Below are positions 26,305 through 59,170 of a stretch of DNA of 61,823 nt, piece after piece. A program made the position numbers and the translations under genes. The stretch covers positions 1 through 61,823 of the IMG/VR virus record IMGVR_UViG_3300022928_000025. One strand, written 5' to 3'. How positions within the stretch are numbered: the stretch's first letter is position 1; each line of letters starts with the position of its first letter. This DNA comes from a virus. The notes under the pieces are model-generated. The model was not told the origin of the DNA. It did no database searches and was given only the letters and a program-made list of their open reading frames with translations.

Positions 26305-26929
26305 ATTTCACATTCCTTGCTATTGGTGTATTTCCTGAACGCGCTTTATTCTCAGCATCTTTGACGCCTTCGTTGTAAAGCATTCCGTACATCTGCGCCG
26401 CAGCGTAATCAGTCCAATCTTTCGACGGAGTTCGCAACAATCGAAACAAGGCGCCATTTACAATTGCGTCTTTGTTATCGTTTAGTATCTCGTCGCTAAG
26501 AGTCGTACTGGTTACTGTTGGCTTAAGTACAGCGCGTAAAATCACGCTCTCGACAACCGTAGTATTTGGCACCGGAGCTAACCAAAACGTACTTTGGGTC
26601 TGCTGGACAAAATACTCGGGGATAGAAAACTTAGAAGGGTCGCGCCAATTTGGCTGACGCTTTTCTAAAAGCGCAGTACTGATAGGCTCTAACTTGTCAC
26701 CCTTGTAGACAGCCCAAAGAATCTTCTCAACGACCGTGCCTTTTGGAGGCTCGAGGTCATATTCATAGATTTTTGCAACCGTCGTTACAGGGTCTAGTTC
26801 TTGCTGATAGATTTCAGATTTGACGCACAGGTCTATGGCCGCGGAGCGAAGAGCTGATATAGCCATCGCATCTGAGCAGCCATGAACGCTGGGTAAAACG
26901 TCTGGTAGTAAAGACTCGAAAGTCGCCAT
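26252..26929 (-). CDS. Head-tail adaptor-like protein
   Basis: 225 residues. The opening FESLLPDVLPSVHGCSDAMA with LRSAAIDLC, and the later KDAIVNGALFRLLRTPSKDWTDYAAAQ, follow the helical design of portal-attached adaptor proteins, in which residues line up head to tail around the portal ring. It lies after the second adaptor-like gene at 26946-27644 and before the ejection proteins, the usual place. The end of the gene overlaps the GNAT-like gene. Assignment by position and pattern only. Confidence 0.55.
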   Translation of the reverse strand: MATFESLLPDVLPSVHGCSDAMAISALRSAAIDLCVKSEIYQQELDPVTTVAKIYEYDLEPPKGTVVEKILWAVYKGDKLEPISTALLEKRQPNWRDPSKFSIPEYFVQQTQSTFWLAPVPNTTVVESVILRAVLKPTVTSTTLSDEILNDNKDAIVNGALFRLLRTPSKDWTDYAAAQMYGMLYNEGVKDAENKARSGNTPIARNVKYGGYHSSPFRRRYTQYR

Positions 26930-36207: not shown

Positions 36208-36426
36208 ATGAACAACATCAAAATCTTCAGCACCGCCGCAATCAAATTCTTTCTCTTTCTATTAGCAGTCTACGCAATCTCAGCTACCTTCGCCTTCGCT
36301 ACCCAAACCGTCGTCAATCCCAACGACATCTCAAACGATTACATCTGCATCAAAGACTTATTTCCCGACGCTTACTACTGCAAGCCCAAAGCCAAAGATC
36401 CTATCCCTTGGTTTCTTGACCTTTAA
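36208..36426 (+). CDS. Small secreted or membrane-anchored protein
   Basis: 72 residues. A basic start (MNNIKIFSTAAIKF) followed by a hydrophobic segment (FLFLLAVYAISATFAFA) and an AFAT cleavage-like site gives a probable signal peptide. The mature part has two cysteines (YICIKD, YYCKPK) that could pair in the periplasm, ending in PWFLDL. The leader box AGTACTAACC precedes the ATG, as in neighbours. Likely a periplasmic early protein. Confidence 0.6.
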   Translation: MNNIKIFSTAAIKFFLFLLAVYAISATFAFATQTVVNPNDISNDYICIKDLFPDAYYCKPKAKDPIPWFLDL

Positions 36427-36462
36427 CCCTTATCACTTATCAATTATCCAGGACTATTAACC

Positions 36463-36687
36463 ATGAACTACCTAACTAACAAACTCAGCACTATCAACTA
36501 TCAAGCTCATCTGCAAACAGCCAAAGAACTAGCACTCAAAGCCAAAGACTACGCTAAAGAAAACCCAGACACCGTATTCCTCGGCCTCACCTCGCTACTG
36601 CTCCTAGACATCAGTGACTCACTCGACAATCTCGAAGACCACTCAACTATCCAAACCATCTTAGACCTCAAAAATAACGGATACTAA
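36463..36687 (+). CDS. Hypothetical early protein related to 37372-37584
   Basis: 74 residues. AKDYAKENPDTVFLGLTSLL followed by DISDSLDNLED closely resembles the gene at 37372-37584 (HAKANPDVWALGLLAFVV, GDLSDITEALSEL), so the two are paralogues flanking the iteron array. A weakly hydrophobic central helix (VFLGLTSLLLL) may touch membrane. Function unknown. Confidence 0.6.
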   Translation: MNYLTNKLSTINYQAHLQTAKELALKAKDYAKENPDTVFLGLTSLLLLDISDSLDNLEDHSTIQTILDLKNNGY

Positions 36688-36689
36688 CC

Positions 36690-36794
36690 ATGAAAAAGAA
36701 ATCATTCGAACTACTCATCGTTAACCTCACAGGCATAAGCTGCTGCGTACTCCTCGGCTTGTGGCTCGCCTTCCTACTCACATTACCCTTCTAA
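36690..36794 (+). CDS. Tiny membrane protein
   Basis: 34 residues: MKKKSFELLIVN then a single membrane helix (CVLLGLWLAFLLTLPF) with a double Cys at its start. It starts 2 nt after the previous stop with the shared GATACTAACC leader box, and the terminator 36798-36839 follows at once, so it closes the first early operon. Confidence 0.6.
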   Translation: MKKKSFELLIVNLTGISCCVLLGLWLAFLLTLPF

Positions 36795-36797
36795 CTC

Positions 36798-36839
36798 ATC
36801 GCTTTACTCGCGGCCCCCCGACAGGGGGGGCTTAGCGAT
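36798..36839 (+). terminator. Strong hairpin terminator of the first early operon
   Basis: GCCCCCC-GACA-GGGGGGC (36813-36831) forms a near-perfect GC stem with a tetraloop. An outer ATCGCT/AGCGAT pair extends it. A T/C-rich run (TTTGGCCTCTTT) follows instead of pure T. It separates the four small membrane genes from the iteron region. Confidence 0.7.
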
Positions 36840-37371
36840 TTGGCCTCTTTACGAGCCAGATAAACGTGCATGTGTAAGCAATAAACGTGCATGGACACTT
36901 ATCAAGGGACACTTATCAAGGGACAAATGACAACGGGCAGGGGTCAATGGCCAAGAATCACGTAAATTGATCAAATATTAACCAATAACGGCCAATGTGT
37001 GTCAGAAAACGAGGTGTGTGTCAGGTTTTACGGTGATGTGGACAGATTTGTGTGACAAATGTTAGTGAACACTATCCCCTTAATACTCAACAACTTACCC
37101 TCAAAAAGGGCAAATGTGTGTCAGGTGTGCCACCTTTTTCAACTCTATTCTAATAATTTGTAATTCCTTTTTTTAAAAACGTTTTCTAGGGAACTCTATG
37201 AAAAAAGTTGTCCACTGGCACACACTTAAGAAAAAGTGACTTAAACCTATGATAACTATAAGAATAGCGTTTACTAACTTCTGGCACACAATCTGGCACA
37301 CATTTTCCAAAAGCTGGCACACAGCAACTTTTCTGGCACACAAGACCTTACAAACTACAAGGATATAAACC
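36840..37371. other. 577-bp non-coding region with iteron arrays; candidate replication origin
   Basis: No credible reading frame lies between 36795 and 37371. Left part: direct repeats ATAAACGTGCATG (two copies) and ACTTATCAAGGGAC (two copies) within 36858-36926. Middle: three TGTGTGTCA copies at 36996, 37015 and 37115, each on the plus strand, and one GGTGTGCCACC. Right: five TGGCACACA copies at 37216, 37282, 37294, 37315 and 37334, which are the reverse complement of TGTGTGCCA. The two arms therefore face each other around an AT-rich stretch (about 37145-37192, with a run of T and A). This arrangement fits a phage origin or partition site. Confidence 0.7.
36996..37342. repeat. Inverted arrays of the 9-bp motif TGTGTGYCA
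   Basis: Three forward copies with T in the variable position at 36996-37004, 37015-37023 and 37115-37123, and five reverse-oriented copies (TGGCACACA) at 37216-37224, 37282-37290, 37294-37302, 37315-37323 and 37334-37342. Spacings in the right arm are 66, 12, 21 and 19 bp; two are near whole helical turns. Confidence 0.85.
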
Positions 37372-37584
37372 ATGACTATCTATGACGAATTCGAAAAAGT
37401 TAAGGGTACATTCCAACAGAAAGTACCCACATCAACACTTGGCAAGGTACAAGCGAGAGCTAATTACCTACTTCAACATGCCAAAGCTAACCCTGACGTC
37501 TGGGCACTTGGCCTCTTGGCTTTTGTCGTAGGTGACTTGTCAGATATCACTGAAGCCTTATCCGAATTAACTACCGAGGTGTAA
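37372..37584 (+). CDS. Hypothetical early protein, paralogue of 36463-36687
   Basis: 70 residues. DEFEKVKGTFQQKVPTST, then ANYLLQHAKANPDVW, ALGLLAFVVGDLSDITEAL. The shared AxxNPDxxxLGL...DxSD core identifies it as a paralogue of 36463-36687. It is the first gene after the iteron array; AAGGATATAAACC precedes the ATG. Function unknown. Confidence 0.6.
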   Translation: MTIYDEFEKVKGTFQQKVPTSTLGKVQARANYLLQHAKANPDVWALGLLAFVVGDLSDITEALSELTTEV

Positions 37585-37587
37585 CCC

Positions 37588-37779
37588 ATGAACCCTGAAA
37601 TTGTACGCTCGGCCTTCGGCCGTAAACTCATCGAGATCCACAACGATTGGTGCTTAACCAATAACCTTCCTCAAGCGATGCTTGACTATGAACACTTAAC
37701 AAGTGTCGACGAACCAGAGCTCGTGTCAGGTGAGCATTACTTCCCTTATAAGGAAACTCAACATGATCAAACCACATAA
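37588..37779 (+). CDS. Hypothetical early protein
   Basis: 63 residues, soluble and acidic towards the C-terminus, with an aromatic EHYFPYKETQHDQ end. It starts 3 nt after the preceding stop and overlaps the next start by 17 nt. I recognise no family; position argues for a host-takeover peptide. Confidence 0.5.
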   Translation: MNPEIVRSAFGRKLIEIHNDWCLTNNLPQAMLDYEHLTSVDEPELVSGEHYFPYKETQHDQTT

Positions 37780-38062
37780 CTATTTTAGTTTTTACAGAGC
37801 AGACGTAGTCGCCGAATGCTGGGACGATGTCCCAGACGCGCTATATCGTACTCTCTGGAACGATATCGTACCCGTCCAAGAAGAGCTTGGCGAAGTCCCC
37901 GAAGTGGGAGTCGCAGCACTGTCTGACTATTGGCACCTGCTGTCTGAAACTGATCAAACACTCCTCAACACCCTCGCAGCAAATATTGAAGCTGAGTGGG
38001 AACAAAAAGATGAGTTAGAAGAAAAAGAAGAGTGGGACGAAACAGGCGATATCCCCTACTAA
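37763..38062 (+). CDS. Hypothetical acidic early protein
   Basis: 99 residues, strongly acidic at the end (EWEQKDELEEKEEWDETGD). A DDVPDALYRTLWNDI motif lies near the start. The ATG at 37763 has AAGGAA 7 nt upstream and is preferred to a more upstream in-frame start at 37703. An acidic tail of this type is common in phage DNA mimics and small regulators; nothing more can be said. Confidence 0.55.
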   Translation: MIKPHNYFSFYRADVVAECWDDVPDALYRTLWNDIVPVQEELGEVPEVGVAALSDYWHLLSETDQTLLNTLAANIEAEWEQKDELEEKEEWDETGDIPY

Positions 38063-38156
38063 CCCTCCCCCGCAGAATAACAACTCGATCCTCCGGCTCT
38101 CGTCAGTCGGTATTAATTAATAAGTTAGTTCTATATGTCTCTATATAGTTCTATCT

Positions 38157-43693: not shown

Positions 43694-43893
43694 GTAACGT
43701 TGATTACAGAGACTACGCTTTAGAAGGCGTGGAGAACGGCTTCTTTAATGCCGAGCATTTGCTGTTTTGCTGCCTCAAGTATATGTCGCAAGACGACGTC
43801 AGAGACATGTTAGAAATTAACGAGTATCCCTTATGGAAGGAAGGCAATAATGAAGCATGTAAGCTACACGACCTCGAAACAAACAGCCCGTAG
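43690..43893 (+). CDS. Hypothetical small protein
   Basis: 67 residues with LLFCCLKYMSQDDVRDMLEI (a double-Cys helix). Its end overlaps the methyltransferase start by 44 nt. No function assigned. Confidence 0.5.
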   Translation: MSNVDYRDYALEGVENGFFNAEHLLFCCLKYMSQDDVRDMLEINEYPLWKEGNNEACKLHDLETNSP

Positions 43894-45169
43894 TACACGC
43901 GTTTGGATAGAAGGCGAAGCCCTTACCCGATCAGGTTTTACAGTAGGCACCCCAATAGGCGTTGCCTTCAACAAAGAAAACAAAGAAGTTGTCATCTTTA
44001 AAGATGCTAACTCTACCCGCAAAGTCACCAACAGCAGTCGCAATGGTAAGTCACGCCCTATCATCGACTTGCACAACAAAGATATTCAAGACGTATTCCC
44101 CGCTGGAACTCGCGTTGTAGTCATGTATGCCGACGGCAACATACTCATGAAACACAACCACGAGGACCAAGCCAAAGACGAGCGAGAGAAGCGCTTGGCA
44201 CTTAACATCGAAACTAAAAAGTTGACCACAGCCTCGATGTTTACTGGTGGCGGCATCTCCCACGAGGCCATCCACCAAGCGGTGACCGACCAGGATATTA
44301 CGTGCAGCACAGCATGGATTGCCGAGGCCGAGGTTAAGTACAGCGAGTCAGCCCTTGGCAATTGCCTCTCGATCACTGACGACACGGTTATGTTATCCGG
44401 CACTGTCGAAGAGATAGAAGACATCTACTATAAAAAGGTAGATATCCTCAGCTTCTCCATGCCCTGCGCTGGCTTTAGCAAAGCAGGTAAGGTCAAGCAC
44501 AACCTCTCGTCAGAAGAACACAGCGGCACTGCCCTCTTCGGCGTCTATAACGCCCTTAAGATGGCTAACCCCGCCATAGTGATCAGCGAGAATGTAACCG
44601 AGGCCCAAGACTCTCCCATGTACACACTCCTCAGATGCGAATTACAGCGTCGGGGGTACAAAGTGTTCGAGCAAGTCCTGGATTCTTCCTACACCGATTC
44701 TTTAGAGAATAGAAAGCGGTACTGGCTTGTAGGTATATCAGAAGGTATTGCCCCTGAATCATTAGCCCTTGACCCTGTACAAGCGTCTAACCGCCTCTTA
44801 TCGAGTGTCTTGCAGCCCGTGCCTGAGCAGGAATGGAAAGATCATACTTACCTAAAAGACAAAGCCATCACTGACGCAGCTGCAGGCAAAGGCTTCGCTA
44901 AGCGTCAGTTACTTAATGGCTCTGAAACTCGAATAGGCACTATCGGTAGGTTCTATGCCAAGCGCCGAAGTACTGAGCCGTTCATGACCCGAGAGGATGG
45001 TAAAGAGAGATTATTGACTCCAATCGAGCACGCAGCGGTTAAGTCAGTGCCTGCTCACCTTATAGCAGGTAACAGCACGACAACTGCCCATGAAATTCTT
45101 GGTCAGTCAGTTGATTACTTGCAGCCCTACAAACTAATGCAATTAATATATTCATCTATTTATAAGTAA
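43850..45169 (+). CDS. DNA (cytosine-5)-methyltransferase with N-terminal extension
   Basis: 439 residues. Catalytic order: motif I-like TTASMFTGGGIS, motif IV SMPCAGFSKAGK with the catalytic Cys, motif VI SENV, motif VIII SLENRKRYWLVGI, and the C-terminal motifs IX-X EHAAVKSVPAHLIAG and ILGQSVDYLQP. It methylates C5 of cytosine in duplex DNA; no cognate endonuclease is adjacent, so it is an orphan, protecting phage DNA from host restriction. The first 115 residues (RVWIEGEALTRSGFTVGTPI, then KEVVIFKDANSTRKVTN) are an AbrB/SymE-like addition not found in typical enzymes. Confidence 0.88.
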   Translation: MKHVSYTTSKQTARSTRVWIEGEALTRSGFTVGTPIGVAFNKENKEVVIFKDANSTRKVTNSSRNGKSRPIIDLHNKDIQDVFPAGTRVVVMYADGNILMKHNHEDQAKDEREKRLALNIETKKLTTASMFTGGGISHEAIHQAVTDQDITCSTAWIAEAEVKYSESALGNCLSITDDTVMLSGTVEEIEDIYYKKVDILSFSMPCAGFSKAGKVKHNLSSEEHSGTALFGVYNALKMANPAIVISENVTEAQDSPMYTLLRCELQRRGYKVFEQVLDSSYTDSLENRKRYWLVGISEGIAPESLALDPVQASNRLLSSVLQPVPEQEWKDHTYLKDKAITDAAAGKGFAKRQLLNGSETRIGTIGRFYAKRRSTEPFMTREDGKERLLTPIEHAAVKSVPAHLIAGNSTTTAHEILGQSVDYLQPYKLMQLIYSSIYK

Positions 45170-45987: not shown

Positions 45988-47787
45988 ATGTTAGTAACTC
46001 TTGATTTCGAGACTTACTTTGACGTCCGTCTATCTTTAACTAAGATGACTACGATGCAGTACATCAACGACCCCGAATTTAAAGTTTGGGGCGCTTCTTT
46101 GAAGTTTGATGACTTACCCGCAGAGTGGTACGGCGAATCAGATATAGAAGAGGCTATCTCTCAGGTCAACTGGGATGAAGCTTCTTTACTGTGCCACAAC
46201 ACAGCATTTGACGGGGCAGTTCTTGCTCAGCATTACGGACACACCCCCAAATACTATCTAGATACGAGCTCAATGGCGCGTGGCATTTATCCTGGACATT
46301 CGTCCTCGTTAAAGAATACAGCCATTAGAGTATTCCCTGATGATGAATCAAAGCGCAAAGGCGATGACTTATCTAAAGCAAAAGGTATCTACGACTTACC
46401 TCCTGAGATTGAAGAGGCTCTGGCTTCGTACTGCGTGCAAGACAGCGAACTTACTTATGCCATCTATCAGGCAATAAAAGACAACCTTCCACAGTCTGAA
46501 ATGGATCTTATCGATCAAACAATACGCATGTTTGTCGAACCAGAATTGATCCTTGACCGTGAGCGTTTAACGATCTACATGGACGGGGAAAAAGCCAACT
46601 CGGAAAAAGCTATATCAGACTCAGGTGTAGCGCGAGAAGTTCTATCCTCAAACGCCAAGTTCTCTCTCTACATAGAAGAGACGCTAGGCTTAACAGTACC
46701 CACTAAGAAGTCCCCTACTACAGGTAAAGACATTCCCGCGCTCGGTAAAAACGACGCAGGCTTTCAACAGCTAGCCAAGATGTACCCGCAGCACAAGCAT
46801 GTATGGGACGCAAGAACAGCAGTCAAGTCTCGTCTTAAGGAGACACGAGCTAAGCGCTTCTTAGACGCAGCTAACCCTGATAATAAGATTGGCATACCAC
46901 TTCGCTACTATGCAGCTCACACAGGACGCTACGGCGGCTCTGACAAACTTAATTTTCAAAATATGCCCAGAGGCTCAGAACTCAGAAAATGCCTTTGTTC
47001 TCCCAAAGGGCATTATATATACGTTGCAGACTTATCAAATATAGAAGCGAGGATGCTTGCATGGTTATCTGGTCAAGATGACTTACTAGAGCAATTCCGA
47101 ACTGGGACTGATGTCTATTCAGCCTTTGCTTCGTCTATCTATGACCGAGAGATAAATAAGGATGATGATCCCACTGAGCGTTTCGTAGGAAAAACCGCTG
47201 TACTCGGCCTTGGCTACGGCATGGGATGGAAGAAATTCCAAAGCACCCTTGCTCTTGGTGCAGCAGGCCCAGTTGTAGAAGTCCAAGACGAGAAAGCGTG
47301 GCAGATCGTTAATGCTTATCGTTCGAAATTCTGGCGCATACCGCATTTATGGTCTGTCTGTAGTCAGTTTTTAATCGATATGCTCTCAGGCTCTGACAAC
47401 GCATACAGTGTTCTTAGAACTGAGAAGAATAAGATCATACTCCCTAACTCAATGTGTCTTTACTACGAAGGGCTAACCAACACTCGCGACGGTTTCCAGT
47501 TCTCTTCCGGTAATAAGACTACTTACACATATGGCGGCAAGATTACAGAAAATGTCGTTCAAGCTCTTAGCAGGATTGTTGTCACAGACGCTCTCCTGCG
47601 CATTTCTAAGATAGCGGACATCAAAGTCTGCCTCACAGTCCACGATGAGATTGTTTGCATAGCTCCTGAAGAAAATCCAGAACAGCGTCTGCAACAAATC
47701 ATCGACACTATGTGCATCGCACCTAGTTGGGCCGAAGACCTTCCCCTCGCCGCCGAGGGCGGCTTCGACAGAGCATACTCTAAATGA
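45988..47787 (+). CDS. DNA polymerase, family A, with 3'-5' exonuclease
   Basis: 599 residues. Exonuclease: DFETYFD (Asp6, Glu8), HNTAFD (Asp75), YCVQDSE (Asp152). Polymerase: motif A DLSNIEAR (Asp348), motif B O-helix Arg398-x3-Lys402-x3-Leu406-x3-Tyr410 (RFVGKTAVLGLGYG), and motif C VHDEIV (His552, Asp553). Leu406 corresponds to Phe762 of E. coli Pol I. This is the replicative polymerase. In marine phage surveys Leu at this site has been linked with temperate lifestyles, which fits the integrase and repressor here. It overlaps the CsrA-like gene by 4 nt. Confidence 0.95.
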   Translation: MLVTLDFETYFDVRLSLTKMTTMQYINDPEFKVWGASLKFDDLPAEWYGESDIEEAISQVNWDEASLLCHNTAFDGAVLAQHYGHTPKYYLDTSSMARGIYPGHSSSLKNTAIRVFPDDESKRKGDDLSKAKGIYDLPPEIEEALASYCVQDSELTYAIYQAIKDNLPQSEMDLIDQTIRMFVEPELILDRERLTIYMDGEKANSEKAISDSGVAREVLSSNAKFSLYIEETLGLTVPTKKSPTTGKDIPALGKNDAGFQQLAKMYPQHKHVWDARTAVKSRLKETRAKRFLDAANPDNKIGIPLRYYAAHTGRYGGSDKLNFQNMPRGSELRKCLCSPKGHYIYVADLSNIEARMLAWLSGQDDLLEQFRTGTDVYSAFASSIYDREINKDDDPTERFVGKTAVLGLGYGMGWKKFQSTLALGAAGPVVEVQDEKAWQIVNAYRSKFWRIPHLWSVCSQFLIDMLSGSDNAYSVLRTEKNKIILPNSMCLYYEGLTNTRDGFQFSSGNKTTYTYGGKITENVVQALSRIVVTDALLRISKIADIKVCLTVHDEIVCIAPEENPEQRLQQIIDTMCIAPSWAEDLPLAAEGGFDRAYSK

Positions 47788-47981
47788 CCAGATTAGTATT
47801 AACGCGAAAGACAGATGAAGAAGTAATTATTTCAGATAACAGCGGAAGTGTTGTCTGTTCTATCACTGTTAATAAAGTAGATAGAGGAAACGTAAGACTG
47901 TGTTTTGAGGCTGACTCAGACCTGCGGATAGATAGGAAGGAAGTTTTTTTATCTAAAAAGAAAAACAACGAATTGGGGTAG
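47784..47981 (+). CDS. csrA: CsrA/RsmA-like RNA-binding regulator
   Basis: 65 residues. RLVLTRKTDEEVIISD, then VVCSITVNKVDRGNVRLCFE, DLRIDRKEVFLSKKKN aligns along its length with bacterial CsrA (LILTRRVGETLMIGD, VRIGV, VHREEIYQRI). Leu4, and Arg51 in the place of CsrA Arg44, the key RNA contacts, are kept; a two-residue insertion lies near residue 20. CsrA dimers bind GGA sites near start codons and alter translation and stability of mRNA. A phage copy could redirect host carbon flow or tune phage mRNAs. It sits between the polymerase and primase genes. Confidence 0.85.
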   Translation: MTRLVLTRKTDEEVIISDNSGSVVCSITVNKVDRGNVRLCFEADSDLRIDRKEVFLSKKKNNELG

Positions 47982-47988
47982 GTGACAT

Positions 47989-50484
47989 ATGCAAGTTACT
48001 TTCCTCGAAGCGTCTAGCTCCACAACTCTTTCGAAGACTATATCGGGTCTGACTACAAAGCCATACCCTTTCGTTAAGAACGTTACGTCTCACAAATACG
48101 ATAACGTTGATATCGCACGCCTATACACTTTAATAGACCACCACGCTAACCTTGGCCATTGTCTATTAAAAGGAAACCCTGCAATTGATCTAGTTGATAG
48201 GAGCCGAGCCGGCAGCGTTCGTCGCCAGGATCTTAATCAGCTTCTAGTACTAGACTTTGACGGCATAAATCATCCTGCTCATATATGTCAGAAGGCATAC
48301 ACGCAAGCAGATGTTATTAGGTTAGCTGAAGTCATAATTAACCAGTTGCCTCCAGCGCTTAAAGAAGTGACCTACATAGCACAAGCCAGCAGTTCATTGG
48401 GTTTTAAGGGTGACAAGCTTAGCTTACATATAATCTTTAAGCTTAACTATGCACTGCCCCCTGCTACACAAAAACTTTGGCTTCAGAATACAAACTTCGA
48501 AACGCCTCTTTTAGCAGACCAGATAGGGCTATCAGTTAACGGACAAAGTCTTACTTGGCCGCTCGACGCTAGTCTTGCTGATAACTCTAAGCTCATATTT
48601 ATAGCGCCTCCCGTGTTTGAGAACGGTGCTGTAGACCCTTTCCCCTCGCCTAGTGAGCGGATAGTGCTAGTCCAAAAAGAGAAGCAAGAGCTCGCTTTAG
48701 ATCAGCTAGTCAATCTCAGCCCTGAAATTGTTCATAACAAATCTATAGAGTTTAAAAACAAACTCCGATCTGATCGTGGCTATAGCCGCCGTAAAGAAAA
48801 AATCTCAACTGTTAATGTAAACAACAGAGCAGAAGAGGTTCTCAGCAATCCCGATCGAATGACTATATCTATTGCTAATCAGACGTATCTACCTTGGGTT
48901 AACTGCAACATAAACTCTGGCAACTCAGCTGCATACTACTTCAGCTTAGAGCGCCCAAGTTATATGTATAACTTCAAAGGTGAACCTATATTCGAAATTG
49001 AAAAAGCTGATCCTGATTTCTTTGCATCAATCCACGAAATATTTGAAGACTATTTCAAAGTAAATGGTAAGACCCTTTTACCCGTAGTCCTACGAGACTT
49101 TGATACCGACACCTATTTCAACGGGTTGTTTGATCCTAATAAATCACAGTTTGATGACACCTTCCCTTTAAGCCCTAGTTCACAGACTGGCATGGAAAGT
49201 TTCATGGCTACTCATGGTGCTTTGCCGCCTGACCAAGTTATGGATGCCAAGATATATTTTAATCCTACTGAGAAGGTGCCTACGGTTGACCTTAAACAGT
49301 TGCCCATGAAGATTAATCTCTATCGCAGAACTGAGTACATGATGCACCCAGCTCCTGTCGACTCAAGGCTTACTTTCGGTGATGCAATTAATCTTAAGGA
49401 CAAGACCCCTTTAATATACAAACTCCTCCATCACGTACTTGGTAATGGTGATCAAGAGTTCGAACGTTTCATTAACTGGCTTGCTTATGTCTTTCAGACT
49501 AGAGAGAAGACAGGTACGGCGTGGGTTTTCACTGGGGTCCAAGGCACAGGTAAAGGCATATTTTATAGCCACATACTTCGACCTCTCTTCGGGTCACACC
49601 ACGTCCCAATGAAATCTATCCAATCTATAGAAGAGCAGTTCAATAGTTATATGCGTCAAGCAATCTTCATGATTGTGGATGAGTTCCACATGGCCAGCGC
49701 TACCCAAGGCACAATGAAGATGGCAGATAAACTCAAAAATCAGATCACTGAACCTACTCAGACAATCAGGGCTATGCGATCAAATCAGATTGAAGTGCCC
49801 TCCTACACTAACTTTATCTTTCTTACTAACCGAGCAGATGCAGTAAAGATCGAAGAGACAGACAGGCGCTACAACATTGGCCCTCGCCAAGAAGTCACAC
49901 TCCTCGAGGCACACCCAGAAGTTATAGATAACTTAGACAAAATTGAATCAGAGTTGCCCTTGTTTGCCGGTTATCTGGCAACTTTTAAAGTGAGCAATCG
50001 ATTAGTTAAGACTCCTATTATTAATGAAGCTAAAGAGCTTATGCGACAGGTTTCCTTAACTGATATTGAAGAGTTCTTCCAAGCCTTTAGGCAAGGCGAC
50101 TTACCATACTTTACTGATGTATTAGACATCGATGTCACTGACGTAATGAAAGCCGGTGAGCATATGACAGCTAAGCGAACAATCAAATATTGGATAGCAC
50201 AATCTAAAGACCCCTACTGCATTATCAGTTATGACTCTATGCAAATTATCTACAACACCTTAGTAGCTACTCACACGACCAGAATGAGCCCTTTACAATT
50301 TAAAAAAATGGCTATGAAGAATGGCCTTACATCTTCACGCAAACGCCCACATGGCGCCCCTCGAGAAGTAAACCCTATAAGAGGAGTCGAAATTCATTGG
50401 CGCCTTTCTGAACTCGTTCGGCAAGAACTTATAGCACGTTACTTTACTGAGCAAACGGATAAAAGATTATTGGAGCCCGCATGA
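47989..50484 (+). CDS. Primase-helicase (AEP primase plus D5-like helicase)
   Basis: 831 residues. N-terminal primase: LLVLDFDGINH (Asp-x-Asp metal site, about residue 83) and KLSLHIIFKLN (Ser-x-His), as in archaeo-eukaryotic primases. The C-terminal superfamily 3 helicase has Walker A VFTGVQGTGKG, Walker B IFMIVDEFH, sensor NFIFLTNRAD, and arginine finger DRRYNIGPR, in the DUF5906/D5 family. It should unwind and prime at the origin. Stop overlaps the nuclease start by 4 nt. Confidence 0.88.
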   Translation: MQVTFLEASSSTTLSKTISGLTTKPYPFVKNVTSHKYDNVDIARLYTLIDHHANLGHCLLKGNPAIDLVDRSRAGSVRRQDLNQLLVLDFDGINHPAHICQKAYTQADVIRLAEVIINQLPPALKEVTYIAQASSSLGFKGDKLSLHIIFKLNYALPPATQKLWLQNTNFETPLLADQIGLSVNGQSLTWPLDASLADNSKLIFIAPPVFENGAVDPFPSPSERIVLVQKEKQELALDQLVNLSPEIVHNKSIEFKNKLRSDRGYSRRKEKISTVNVNNRAEEVLSNPDRMTISIANQTYLPWVNCNINSGNSAAYYFSLERPSYMYNFKGEPIFEIEKADPDFFASIHEIFEDYFKVNGKTLLPVVLRDFDTDTYFNGLFDPNKSQFDDTFPLSPSSQTGMESFMATHGALPPDQVMDAKIYFNPTEKVPTVDLKQLPMKINLYRRTEYMMHPAPVDSRLTFGDAINLKDKTPLIYKLLHHVLGNGDQEFERFINWLAYVFQTREKTGTAWVFTGVQGTGKGIFYSHILRPLFGSHHVPMKSIQSIEEQFNSYMRQAIFMIVDEFHMASATQGTMKMADKLKNQITEPTQTIRAMRSNQIEVPSYTNFIFLTNRADAVKIEETDRRYNIGPRQEVTLLEAHPEVIDNLDKIESELPLFAGYLATFKVSNRLVKTPIINEAKELMRQVSLTDIEEFFQAFRQGDLPYFTDVLDIDVTDVMKAGEHMTAKRTIKYWIAQSKDPYCIISYDSMQIIYNTLVATHTTRMSPLQFKKMAMKNGLTSSRKRPHGAPREVNPIRGVEIHWRLSELVRQELIARYFTEQTDKRLLEPA

Positions 50485-56199: not shown

Positions 56200-56814
56200 A
56201 TGCAAACCGTACCGAAGCCAATAACGAACGATGTTAAGACTTCAAATCTCAAGAAAGTTTGGAACGAAAAGAAACGAATTCTTGATATCACTCAGCAGAC
56301 AGCTGCTCAACAACTAGGGATTACGCAAGGAGCATTTTCTCAGTATCTCAATGGCCATTGCCCACTTAATGAAAAGGCTACTATGAAAATAGCCAAATTC
56401 TTAGGTGTTCACCCTGAAGTCATTGATCCTAATTTCAGAGATAACGTTAATATTATAAAACGTCATCAATGGAAAGCGGTTGTTTCTCACACGTCATCAG
56501 ACGCTAATAAAGAACTAGGTGAACTGGTAGAAAGTAAGTTTGATGAGCAGCCTTTGTATATAAGAATAGATAAGGTTACGAAGATTTTTGATCCTAACGG
56601 TGAACTTATATCGATCCTACCGAAAGAAGCTTTATTAGCGCTTATAGACATCCGAAATCCGAAGTACCCCGTCAAAAGAAAATGCAAAGATAACATATAT
56701 GCAATTGTGAGTAAGAATAAAAAATCTTACTCTTTTATATGTGATTCAAGGCCACCCGCCTATGGAAACAATACAGTTACTATTTATCAAGTGGTAAATG
56801 TTGTTTATTTGTAA
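56200..56814 (+). CDS. XRE-family phage repressor without S24 peptidase site
   Basis: 204 residues. HTH at about 25-80: TAAQQLGITQGAFSQYLNG and MKIAKFLGVHPEVI. The C-terminal part (LYIRIDKVTKIFDPNGELIS to VVNVVYL) is beta-rich but has no Ser/Lys pair of a LexA-type self-cleaving domain, so SOS-induced cleavage is unlikely. Probably the lysogeny repressor; GGAG is 5 nt ahead of the ATG. Confidence 0.75.
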   Translation: MQTVPKPITNDVKTSNLKKVWNEKKRILDITQQTAAQQLGITQGAFSQYLNGHCPLNEKATMKIAKFLGVHPEVIDPNFRDNVNIIKRHQWKAVVSHTSSDANKELGELVESKFDEQPLYIRIDKVTKIFDPNGELISILPKEALLALIDIRNPKYPVKRKCKDNIYAIVSKNKKSYSFICDSRPPAYGNNTVTIYQVVNVVYL

Positions 56815-56926: not shown

Positions 56927-57154
56927 TTGATGCTTTCTAAACTATTACTTCAGTGTCATGGCCCTTTAATGGACATGGACGACTTAGCAGGCGCGCTTAA
57001 AATAAAACGTGAGTCTCTCTACCAACGAATTTACTACGGGAAACTAGAGATTCCCCACATGAAGAACGGAAAGAAGTATCTATTCAAAACACAGGATGTC
57101 GCTGAATACATACAAAGTGAGTTTGAACGAGCTACTTCTTTAACTACCCATTGA
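56927..57154 (+). CDS. xis: Excisionase-like HTH protein (MerR/HTH_17 type)
   Basis: 75 residues. DMDDLAGALKIKRESLYQRI, YYGKLEIPHMKNGKKYLFKT and QDVAEYIQSE is the winged-helix pattern of excisionases and HTH_17 proteins. It runs towards the integrase and overlaps its 3' end by 11 nt on the opposite strand. It likely controls the direction of recombination and may act as a second regulator of the operators. Confidence 0.7.
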   Translation: MMLSKLLLQCHGPLMDMDDLAGALKIKRESLYQRIYYGKLEIPHMKNGKKYLFKTQDVAEYIQSEFERATSLTTH

Positions 57155-58190
57155 GCTTATCTACTAAAGACGACGCATTTAGCTGTGTGTACCGCAGCAG
57201 CTGCTTCCAATCTTTATGTCCTGATATTCTCGCCACCTCTTGGATCTGAAGACCTTTTTCAAAGAACCGAGAGACAGCTTCGTGCCGAAGATCGTGGAAG
57301 TGAAGTTCTGGTAACCCAGCTTCTTCCCGTACCTTCACGAACCTATCACTAATTGATTGAGCTAACTTCACCCCTGGAAAGACAGCGCCTGTCCGTTTAC
57401 TTTCAACCGGCACCCAAGTCTTAAGAACCTCCAACGCCTTATTTGACACTGGTATGATCTGGTTATTACCCATCTTTTCACTTGGGTGCTTCCGGTCTTT
57501 AATAAAAATAGTGCTCTGTTTGAAGTCGACATCCTTCCACTGCAACGCTTGGATCTCTCCTTGCCGCATGCCAGTTTCAACTGCCAGCATAATGATTGGC
57601 CCTATCCATCCCGAGTGGTGCTTTAAGCTGGCCTCCATAAGCTGTTTCAGTTCCTGATCACTTACTCTACGCTCCCTCCTGCGACTACCACCCACCAAAC
57701 CTATCTTTGACAGCGCTGACAGCGCGTCTCTTGCTGGGTTAGATGGCAGGTCTACGCCCCACAAAGTCCTAGCGTGGTCTATGGTCTGGGCGACGTAAGT
57801 AAGCTGCTGGTTAAGAGTAGACCTGCTGATTGGCGCTCGGCCCTTGTACCCTGCCCTTCGCTTCTCGGCATATTTAAATAACATGTCGGGCGTAAGCTGA
57901 ATAACACGCACACCTTTAAAATGCTCGGCTGTCATTTTAATGGTGGTCATCTTGCTACGTGCAAAGGGTCGATGGGGGTGAACTTCGTCGATGTACCGAT
58001 GTAGCAGGTAGTCTAGCGTGTAGCCTTCGACTGCTTTAGATTTAGGCAGTGGTTCAGACTTAAGTTCTGCCTTTTTAAGGACAGCCCAATTCTCTGCAGC
58101 TGCTTTTGTGGGGAAGGTTTTATTATATCGCTTACGGTTATGAGAGATGACGCATAACCAGCTGTTACCCCGTCTTGTAATACTCGCCAT
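57144..58190 (-). CDS. int: Tyrosine integrase
   Basis: 348 residues. N-terminal arm-binding beta domain (ITRRGNSWLCVISHNRKRYN), core-binding helices, and a catalytic domain with Arg209 (ETGMRQGEI), Lys231 or Lys234, His299 and Arg302 (HFHDLRHEA), His325 (ISGHKDW), Tyr334 (LLRYTQ). All residues of the R-K-H-R-H-Y set are in place, so the enzyme should be active. It catalyses recombination between attP (upstream, 58211-58444) and attB. Confidence 0.93.
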   Translation of the reverse strand: MASITRRGNSWLCVISHNRKRYNKTFPTKAAAENWAVLKKAELKSEPLPKSKAVEGYTLDYLLHRYIDEVHPHRPFARSKMTTIKMTAEHFKGVRVIQLTPDMLFKYAEKRRAGYKGRAPISRSTLNQQLTYVAQTIDHARTLWGVDLPSNPARDALSALSKIGLVGGSRRRERRVSDQELKQLMEASLKHHSGWIGPIIMLAVETGMRQGEIQALQWKDVDFKQSTIFIKDRKHPSEKMGNNQIIPVSNKALEVLKTWVPVESKRTGAVFPGVKLAQSISDRFVKVREEAGLPELHFHDLRHEAVSRFFEKGLQIQEVARISGHKDWKQLLRYTQLNASSLVDKLNG

Positions 58191-58794: not shown

Positions 58795-59170
58795 TTATAA
58801 TTAGCCTTTTTGAGACATACATAGGATGTCTAAGCTCAAAGAAATAGTCCCCCCCTACATCAGCGCTGAACGAGAGCTCTCCATCATCTTCAGGTGTTAC
58901 TACTGCGTCGGGCCATCTCACCTTTGTTCCAGTGGGAATATTAGTAACACTTATTGTGCTGCCTAACGTGGCAGGAGAAACGTTAAGTTCTGGGAACTCG
59001 GTCTTATCTACTATCGCACCGCCGCTTATGTACTGTGTATCGTAATTTGCGAATACATCAGTGGCCATATACAACTGACCTTGGTCAATGTTCATTTCAA
59101 TTTCTTCTTCTGAACAAGAGATGGCTTTGACAAGAGTACCGTCGGTTTCATAGACAGCATAAATATTCAT
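58784..59170 (-). CDS. Fibre-associated protein (complete copy)
   Basis: 128 residues. NIYAVYETDGTLVKAISCSE at the start, an N-terminal beta domain and a C-terminal Ig-like domain (VSPATLGSTISVTNIPTGTK, VGGDYFFELRHPMYVSKRLI). Start overlaps the fibre stop (ATGA). Small proteins with this start and a C-terminal Ig fold are often tail-fibre assembly or tip proteins. The window's first 101 bases repeat its 5' end. Confidence 0.6.
   Translation of the reverse strand: MNIYAVYETDGTLVKAISCSEEEIEMNIDQGQLYMATDVFANYDTQYISGGAIVDKTEFPELNVSPATLGSTISVTNIPTGTKVRWPDAVVTPEDDGELSFSADVGGDYFFELRHPMYVSKRLIINVA

Follow-up and report, generated by a model that had tools for sequence, protein, structure and literature searches.

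A mirror-symmetric iteron array as a candidate replication origin in a lineage of marine tailed phages

Introduction

To our knowledge, few tailed phages outside model systems have mapped origins of replication. In the SaPI/PICI origins (SaPI5 PriRep1 and SaPIbov1 Rep) and in SCCmec (Cch2), a self-loading helicase initiator has a C-terminal domain for short origin iterons, and both SaPI Rep and P4 alpha are described as binding their iterons through a C-terminal or winged-helix domain. The SaPI origin is described as lying directly downstream of rep. P4 alpha is reported to be a primase-helicase whose winged helix binds the origin repeats before the protein unwinds and primes (PMC4234260), and its primase is reported to be of the Toprim type (PMC4234260). 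The NrS-1 PrimPol-helicase is reported to recognise an 8-nt motif that occurs twice in the genome (PMC7102993). In the PLE of V. cholerae, the origin iterons and the DNA-binding domain of the initiator RepA are reported to change together under pressure from Odn, the origin-directed nuclease of ICP1 (PMC8263062); this RepA is described as a RepA_N protein without a predicted helicase or primase (PMC7145576). Here we describe an iteron array that shares some of these properties and differs in others. Among the papers listed in searches on phage iteron origins, KPP25 and NrS-1, none gives an account of this origin in its title or the opening of its abstract.

Results

The window, by which we mean the whole stretch of DNA analysed, is an IMG/VR virus record of 61,823 bp that resembles a temperate tailed phage. 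Tail and head genes occupy the minus strand up to approximately 35.8 kb, and the early genes run rightward on the plus strand, encoding PolA, a primase-helicase, a PD-(D/E)XK nuclease, an SNF2-type helicase, a CI-like regulator and a tyrosine integrase. A relative of DNA methyltransferases is also encoded in the early region (43850-45169). Named phages with a related TerL and primase-helicase include Aeromonas phage phiA008 and Pseudomonas phage KPP25. No close phage record and no named phage matched the array region (36400-38100), and no close phage record was found for the TerS of the window. Both ends of the window have a second copy within tail-fibre-like genes, the first 112 bases at 59070 and the final 127 at 2715; these repeats may be duplicated fibre segments or a trace of how the record was closed. 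The genes discussed below are as follows.

45988-47787, plus strand: family-A DNA polymerase (PolA), presumed replisome partner
47989-50484, plus strand: primase-helicase of 831 aa with a primase-like N-terminus, an SF3/D5-type helicase (DUF5906) and a C-terminal winged helix; proposed initiator
50059-50481, plus strand: C-terminal winged-helix domain of the primase-helicase (residues 691-831), proposed iteron reader; residue 784 is encoded at 50338-50340 and residue 792 at 50362-50364
56200-56814: CI-like protein
57144-58190: tyrosine integrase, 20 kb from the array

The array is flanked by the small genes 36463 and 37372, which the initial annotation called paralogous; a similarity does exist (39% over 33 aa, E 1e-6), but it is weak. 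The array comprises the following parts.

36996-37057, plus strand: left outer iteron cluster, with TGTGTGTCA at 36996-37004 and 37015-37023, a degenerate TGTGGACAG at 37037-37045 and TGTGTGACA at 37049-37057
37058-37114: left spacer, with an IHF-like site carrying one mismatch (ACTCAACAACTTA, found by eye); many relatives have the exact IHF consensus there
37115-37132, plus strand: left inner pair, TGTGTGTCA at 37115-37123 and GGTGTGCCA at 37124-37132; an exact 9-bp tandem in many relatives
37133-37208: AT-rich core, presumed melting region; symmetry centre at 37169.5
37209-37224, minus strand: right inner pair, a degenerate TGTCCAC at 37209-37215 and TGGCACACA at 37216-37224; both sites are clear in relative L004
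37225-37281: right spacer, with a minus-strand IHF-like site carrying one mismatch, found by eye
37282-37342, minus strand: right outer iteron cluster, with TGGCACACA at 37282, 37294, 37315 and 37334

The positions given in the initial annotation for three exact TGTGTGTCA copies on the plus strand (36996, 37015 and 37115) facing five exact TGGCACACA copies (37216, 37282, 37294, 37315 and 37334) across an AT-rich core were confirmed. A fourth forward site, TGTGTGACA at 37049, had been overlooked, as had the symmetry of the array: the forward sites are mirror-paired with reverse sites, with coordinate sums of 74338, 74338, 74339 and 74339. All four forward sites are thus mirrored to within 1 bp about 37169.5, which random placements equalled in 1,051 of 1,000,000 trials. 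In a fifth mirror pair (37037-37045 versus 37294-37302) the left member is the degenerate TGTGGACAG; the same site is intact in relative L003. When the left half was aligned with the reverse complement of the right half the score was 78, compared with a maximum of 41 among 500 dinucleotide shuffles. The array as a whole has the form of one very large, diverged palindrome with an AT-rich core at its centre.

All nine copies of TGTGTGNCA in the window, counted on both strands, fall within 36996-37342, which disposes of the possibility that the 9-mer is equally dense elsewhere by chance; the repeats are real and not a chance occurrence. In one-mismatch scans the whole-window totals were close to chance (14 versus 14.07 expected, and 17 versus 12.86 expected); the exceptional feature is the clustering of the sites. 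Multiple short iterons lie beside an AT-rich region with 77% AT over 37134-37206, whose predicted stability is among the lowest 0.43% for 60-bp windows. Local stability does not by itself single out the core, since at least seven other places rank below it in the window. GC skew, suggested earlier as a check, had no clear minimum at the array and is uninformative because gene orientation flips close by. Immediately to the left (36860-36920) we noted two tandem pairs, ATAAACGTGCATG at 36860 and 36881 and GGACACTTATCAAG at 36893 and 36907, the latter partly retained in relatives.

Relatives in IMG/VR hold the same architecture at the same place, to the right of TerS and TerL, with an inner pair of sites, a spacer and an outer cluster following one another outwards from the core. 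The iteron is uniform within each array and specific to the phage, all copies switching at once. Among close relatives it is TGTGTGACA in L003, TGTGTGTCA/CCA in L005 and L006, and TGTGGACAG in L004 and L007, and the iteron types overall were TGTGTGNCA, TGTGTGCAG, TGTGTACCA, TGTGTAGCA, TGTGTGACG, TGTGTTCCA, TGTGTACAC, TGTGAGACA, TTTGTGCCA, GCTGTGTCA, GGTGTGACA, ACTGTGACA and GGTGTAGCAG. One of these, TGTGTACAC (L221, 111-474), is nearly its own reverse complement, and its sites are read on both strands.

A pattern scan of IMG/VR returned 50 loci, including some without a two-sided array; those with one belong to a single lineage with a common TerS, TerL and HNH-like gene on the left, and a TerS relative was present at 36 of the 38 loci compared (window included). 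Separately, 38 other records were picked by their primase relative, and none of them contained the TGTGTGNCA tandem. Eight of these were opened at the junction of TerL and the early region, and all eight have an array with a different uniform iteron, the array of G063 being cut by the contig end. Six further records and G087 likewise have an array with a uniform iteron other than TGTGTGNCA. The retrieved sequences of G031, G035, G059 and G077 had no array, and these contigs may not cover the junction.

The core measures 73-77 bp in 20 of 29 arrays. An array usually has five or six sites per side. Cores outside this range were found in the window (83 bp), L020 (83), G048 (80), G078 (85), G027 (86), G041 (95) and G074 (127), and G082 and G087 were counted as not fitting since the script split their arrays wrongly, to give cores of 14-15 bp. 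We read the window core as approximately 76 bp if the degenerate TGTCCAC at 37209 is taken as a site. Exact sites for the IHF consensus, WATCAANNNNTTR, were found in 28 of 41 arrays, which are not independent of one another, against 1.08 expected, and lay mostly within the spacers. The window has no exact IHF site, only the one-mismatch versions seen by eye.

The initial annotation held that no Rep-like initiator was encoded. This no longer stands, as the primase-helicase belongs to the same type of self-loading initiator as P4 alpha and SaPI Rep. It joins an SF3 helicase to a primase-like region, matching DUF5906 (E 5.7e-20) and, by fold, the NrS-1 PrimPol-helicase (E 1.6e-16), poxvirus D5/E5 and SaPI5 PriRep1, with a weak match of the N-terminus to archaeo-eukaryotic primase folds. 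Residues 691-831 are predicted to form a winged helix (pLDDT 91.6) that is closest to residues 619-718 of NrS-1 (Z 7.4, where a Z under 8 may reflect a mere common arrangement); a Foldseek search restricted to this domain returned nothing at E <=0.001. The early proteins shared by all eight array genomes compared are the primase-helicase, the nuclease, PolA, a small putative CsrA-like protein and two other small proteins. The small ORF directly preceding the primase-helicase (47784-47981), present in all eight, encodes the putative CsrA-like protein. One scan returned 412 relatives of the primase-helicase, and arrays were checked in a few dozen. Two relatives (44%; L091 and L092) come from contigs assigned to Planctomycetaceae and Rhodospirillaceae bins; these may be prophages or binning errors and could point to hosts.

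Whole-domain covariation was tried first and was negative: distances over the whole winged-helix region did not follow the iterons (Mantel r 0.075, p 0.22; partial Mantel approximately 0) in a set reduced from 27 to 26 by removing one near-identical protein before counting. The signal came from column-wise tests only, on genomes that are related to one another and with tests picked after viewing the data, L114 excepted. Among 29 genomes, Gln784 was found in all three with TGTGTAGC and in none of the 26 others, and residue 784 was the sole perfect column for TGTGTAGC among 1,816 variable columns in five proteins. When the tree is built with the C-terminal domain left out, the three genomes fall at three different positions; the covariation of residue 784 with TGTGTAGC apparently holds in three separate lineages. 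Gln784 had been noticed in both of the TGTGTAGCA phages then known, from which the same iteron was predicted for L114, which also has Gln784; the array was read afterwards and agrees. A rule that Gln784 is always paired with TAGC is broken in one direction by L121/G044, which has GGTGTAGCAG iterons with Arg784.

Residue 784 covaries with iteron positions 6-7, and residue 792 with the 5′ end of the iteron, Arg792 being present in 23 of 23 genomes whose iteron starts with TG and in one of six others. Residue 792 looked decisive within the primase-helicase and was demoted because column 212 of PolA equals this association. A further genome, L300/G087 (Arg784 and Arg792), agrees with both rules and is a weak trial, both states being common. 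Between L254 and L256 only 15 of 835 columns differ, nine of them in the helix-wing region, where the wing is replaced as a block. The proteins of L256, L254 and L298 are otherwise nearly identical, and the block difference in their wings looks as if it came from recombination or strong selection.

Discussion

It is highly probable, in our judgement, that the array is the phage replication origin, acting bidirectionally and of the P4/SaPI type, with the primase-helicase as its iteron-binding initiator. The comparative evidence favours this reading, which the initial annotation had offered as a candidate in which the primase-helicase might be the binder: relatives keep the layout of the array and its location, many of their arrays have IHF-consensus sites, the SF3 primase-helicase carries a predicted C-terminal winged helix, and a residue of that protein covaries with the motif. 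The primase-helicase is the best candidate for the iteron binder and probably recognises the repeats. Binding, double-hexamer loading, melting and bidirectional replication at the array would then proceed as follows. The C-terminal winged helix would bind each TGTG-based iteron. There are roughly five to six mirrored sites on either side of the core, which would be a suitable count for a single hexamer there, and these sites, together with bends at the IHF-like spacers, would assemble one SF3 helicase hexamer on each side. The two rings would then melt the AT-rich core of approximately 75 bp, move away from each other and supply primers to the phage family-A polymerase.

The nearest lookalike of the array is a lambda-type attP, in which inverted arm-type integrase sites and IHF bends would surround a recombination core for the tyrosine integrase at 57144-58190. 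In its inverted arms, IHF-consensus spacers and short core the array is reminiscent of such a site, and the window encodes both an integrase and an HTH_17 excisionase-like gene. We nevertheless consider this very unlikely: the integrase gene is 20 kb away, the core has no tRNA-like sequence and the window no tRNA gene, and the motif changes follow a residue of the primase-helicase. Nor does the array consistently occur with an integrase, a PF00589 match being absent from seven of 15 long array-bearing records, four of them longer than 52 kb, although these records may be incomplete. There is a similarly small chance that the array is an operator cluster through which an early-region repressor or an immunity protein, for example the CI-like protein, controls the early genes, and that concerted switching is immunity switching. 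Its position where the early region begins would fit, as would a motif that switches in the manner of immunity operators, and two weak promoter-like matches are found within or next to it, which is not above chance (3 found, 3.7 expected); however, no TGTGTGNCA copy lies near the CI-like gene or anywhere else in the window, and a plain operator cluster would not be expected to show a core of fixed length, mirror symmetry or IHF sites.

We regard it as extremely improbable that the array serves in packaging, as a pac site recognised by TerS, or in partition. TerS and TerL are always close on the left, as noted above, but packaging is directional and the array mirror-symmetric, and among 19 genomes none of the TerS columns was perfect for TGTGTAGC, despite a moderate signal for the TG start at column 82 (MI 0.49). 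No ParA or ParB was noticed among the subset of ORFs scanned, and the partition and silencer alternatives of the initial annotation found no positive support; the operator and packaging readings likewise lack positive evidence.

The simplest account, and our best reading, would place an origin of the P4/SaPI kind in this lineage of temperate marine phages. It would differ from that kind in its distance from the gene, its mirror symmetry, a core of nearly constant length, sites with the IHF consensus and the concerted switching of its motif. SaPI5 PriRep1 is alike by fold; whereas SaPI origins are described as adjoining rep, the array lies 10.6 kb upstream of the primase-helicase gene, and for this reason we do not file it as a SaPI origin. 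It also differs in belonging to a large tailed phage, in its mirror symmetry and in the IHF-consensus spacers of its relatives. P4 alpha is likewise a primase-helicase with a winged helix, iteron binding by the protein of the window being our proposal, but its Toprim primase contrasts with the weakly archaeo-eukaryotic N-terminus found here. The NrS-1 protein is the closest solved fold over both the helicase (sequence profile 3.1e-36) and the C-terminal domain; its motif occurs twice, whereas the window has an array.

The PLE origin, at which iterons and initiator are reported to change together, offers a precedent for selection on origin iterons, although its RepA is described without the helicase and primase found in the protein of the window. 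It is possible, and we would lean against it rather than for it, that the iterons act as origin "passwords": the iteron of a 10-12-site origin in one lineage would have been rewritten repeatedly in all copies, with architecture and neighbours kept and the initiator wing swapped to match, driven by pressure on origin recognition. If so, the drivers would be origin-hijacking satellites, nucleases directed against the origin, or incompatibility in replication when relatives co-infect, amounting to an arms race over specificity at the origin of a dsDNA phage, with a protein-DNA code in which residue 784 specifies positions 6-7 of the iteron and its 5′ end is set by the wing surrounding residue 792. 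A candidate origin is in any case recognisable from sequence in a large uncultured marine lineage; the array would allow origins to be mapped in metagenomic phage genomes without cultures, and concerted switching with a covarying residue makes origin specificity and its evolution directly testable.

Of the two named phages, phiA008 was rejected as a comparable case, having AT-rich DNA and inverted repeats with no clear iteron array. KPP25 (Kochitakasuvirus) is alike in its related TerL and primase-helicase; it differs in having another repeat with no clear mirror, and its protein aligns only to residue 715 of that of the window. Intergenic TGTTACGA and TCGTGACA repeats in both orientations surround AT-rich DNA in KPP25 (L062, 6380-6840; record positions 26379-26839), and this segment is a candidate for the KPP25 origin.
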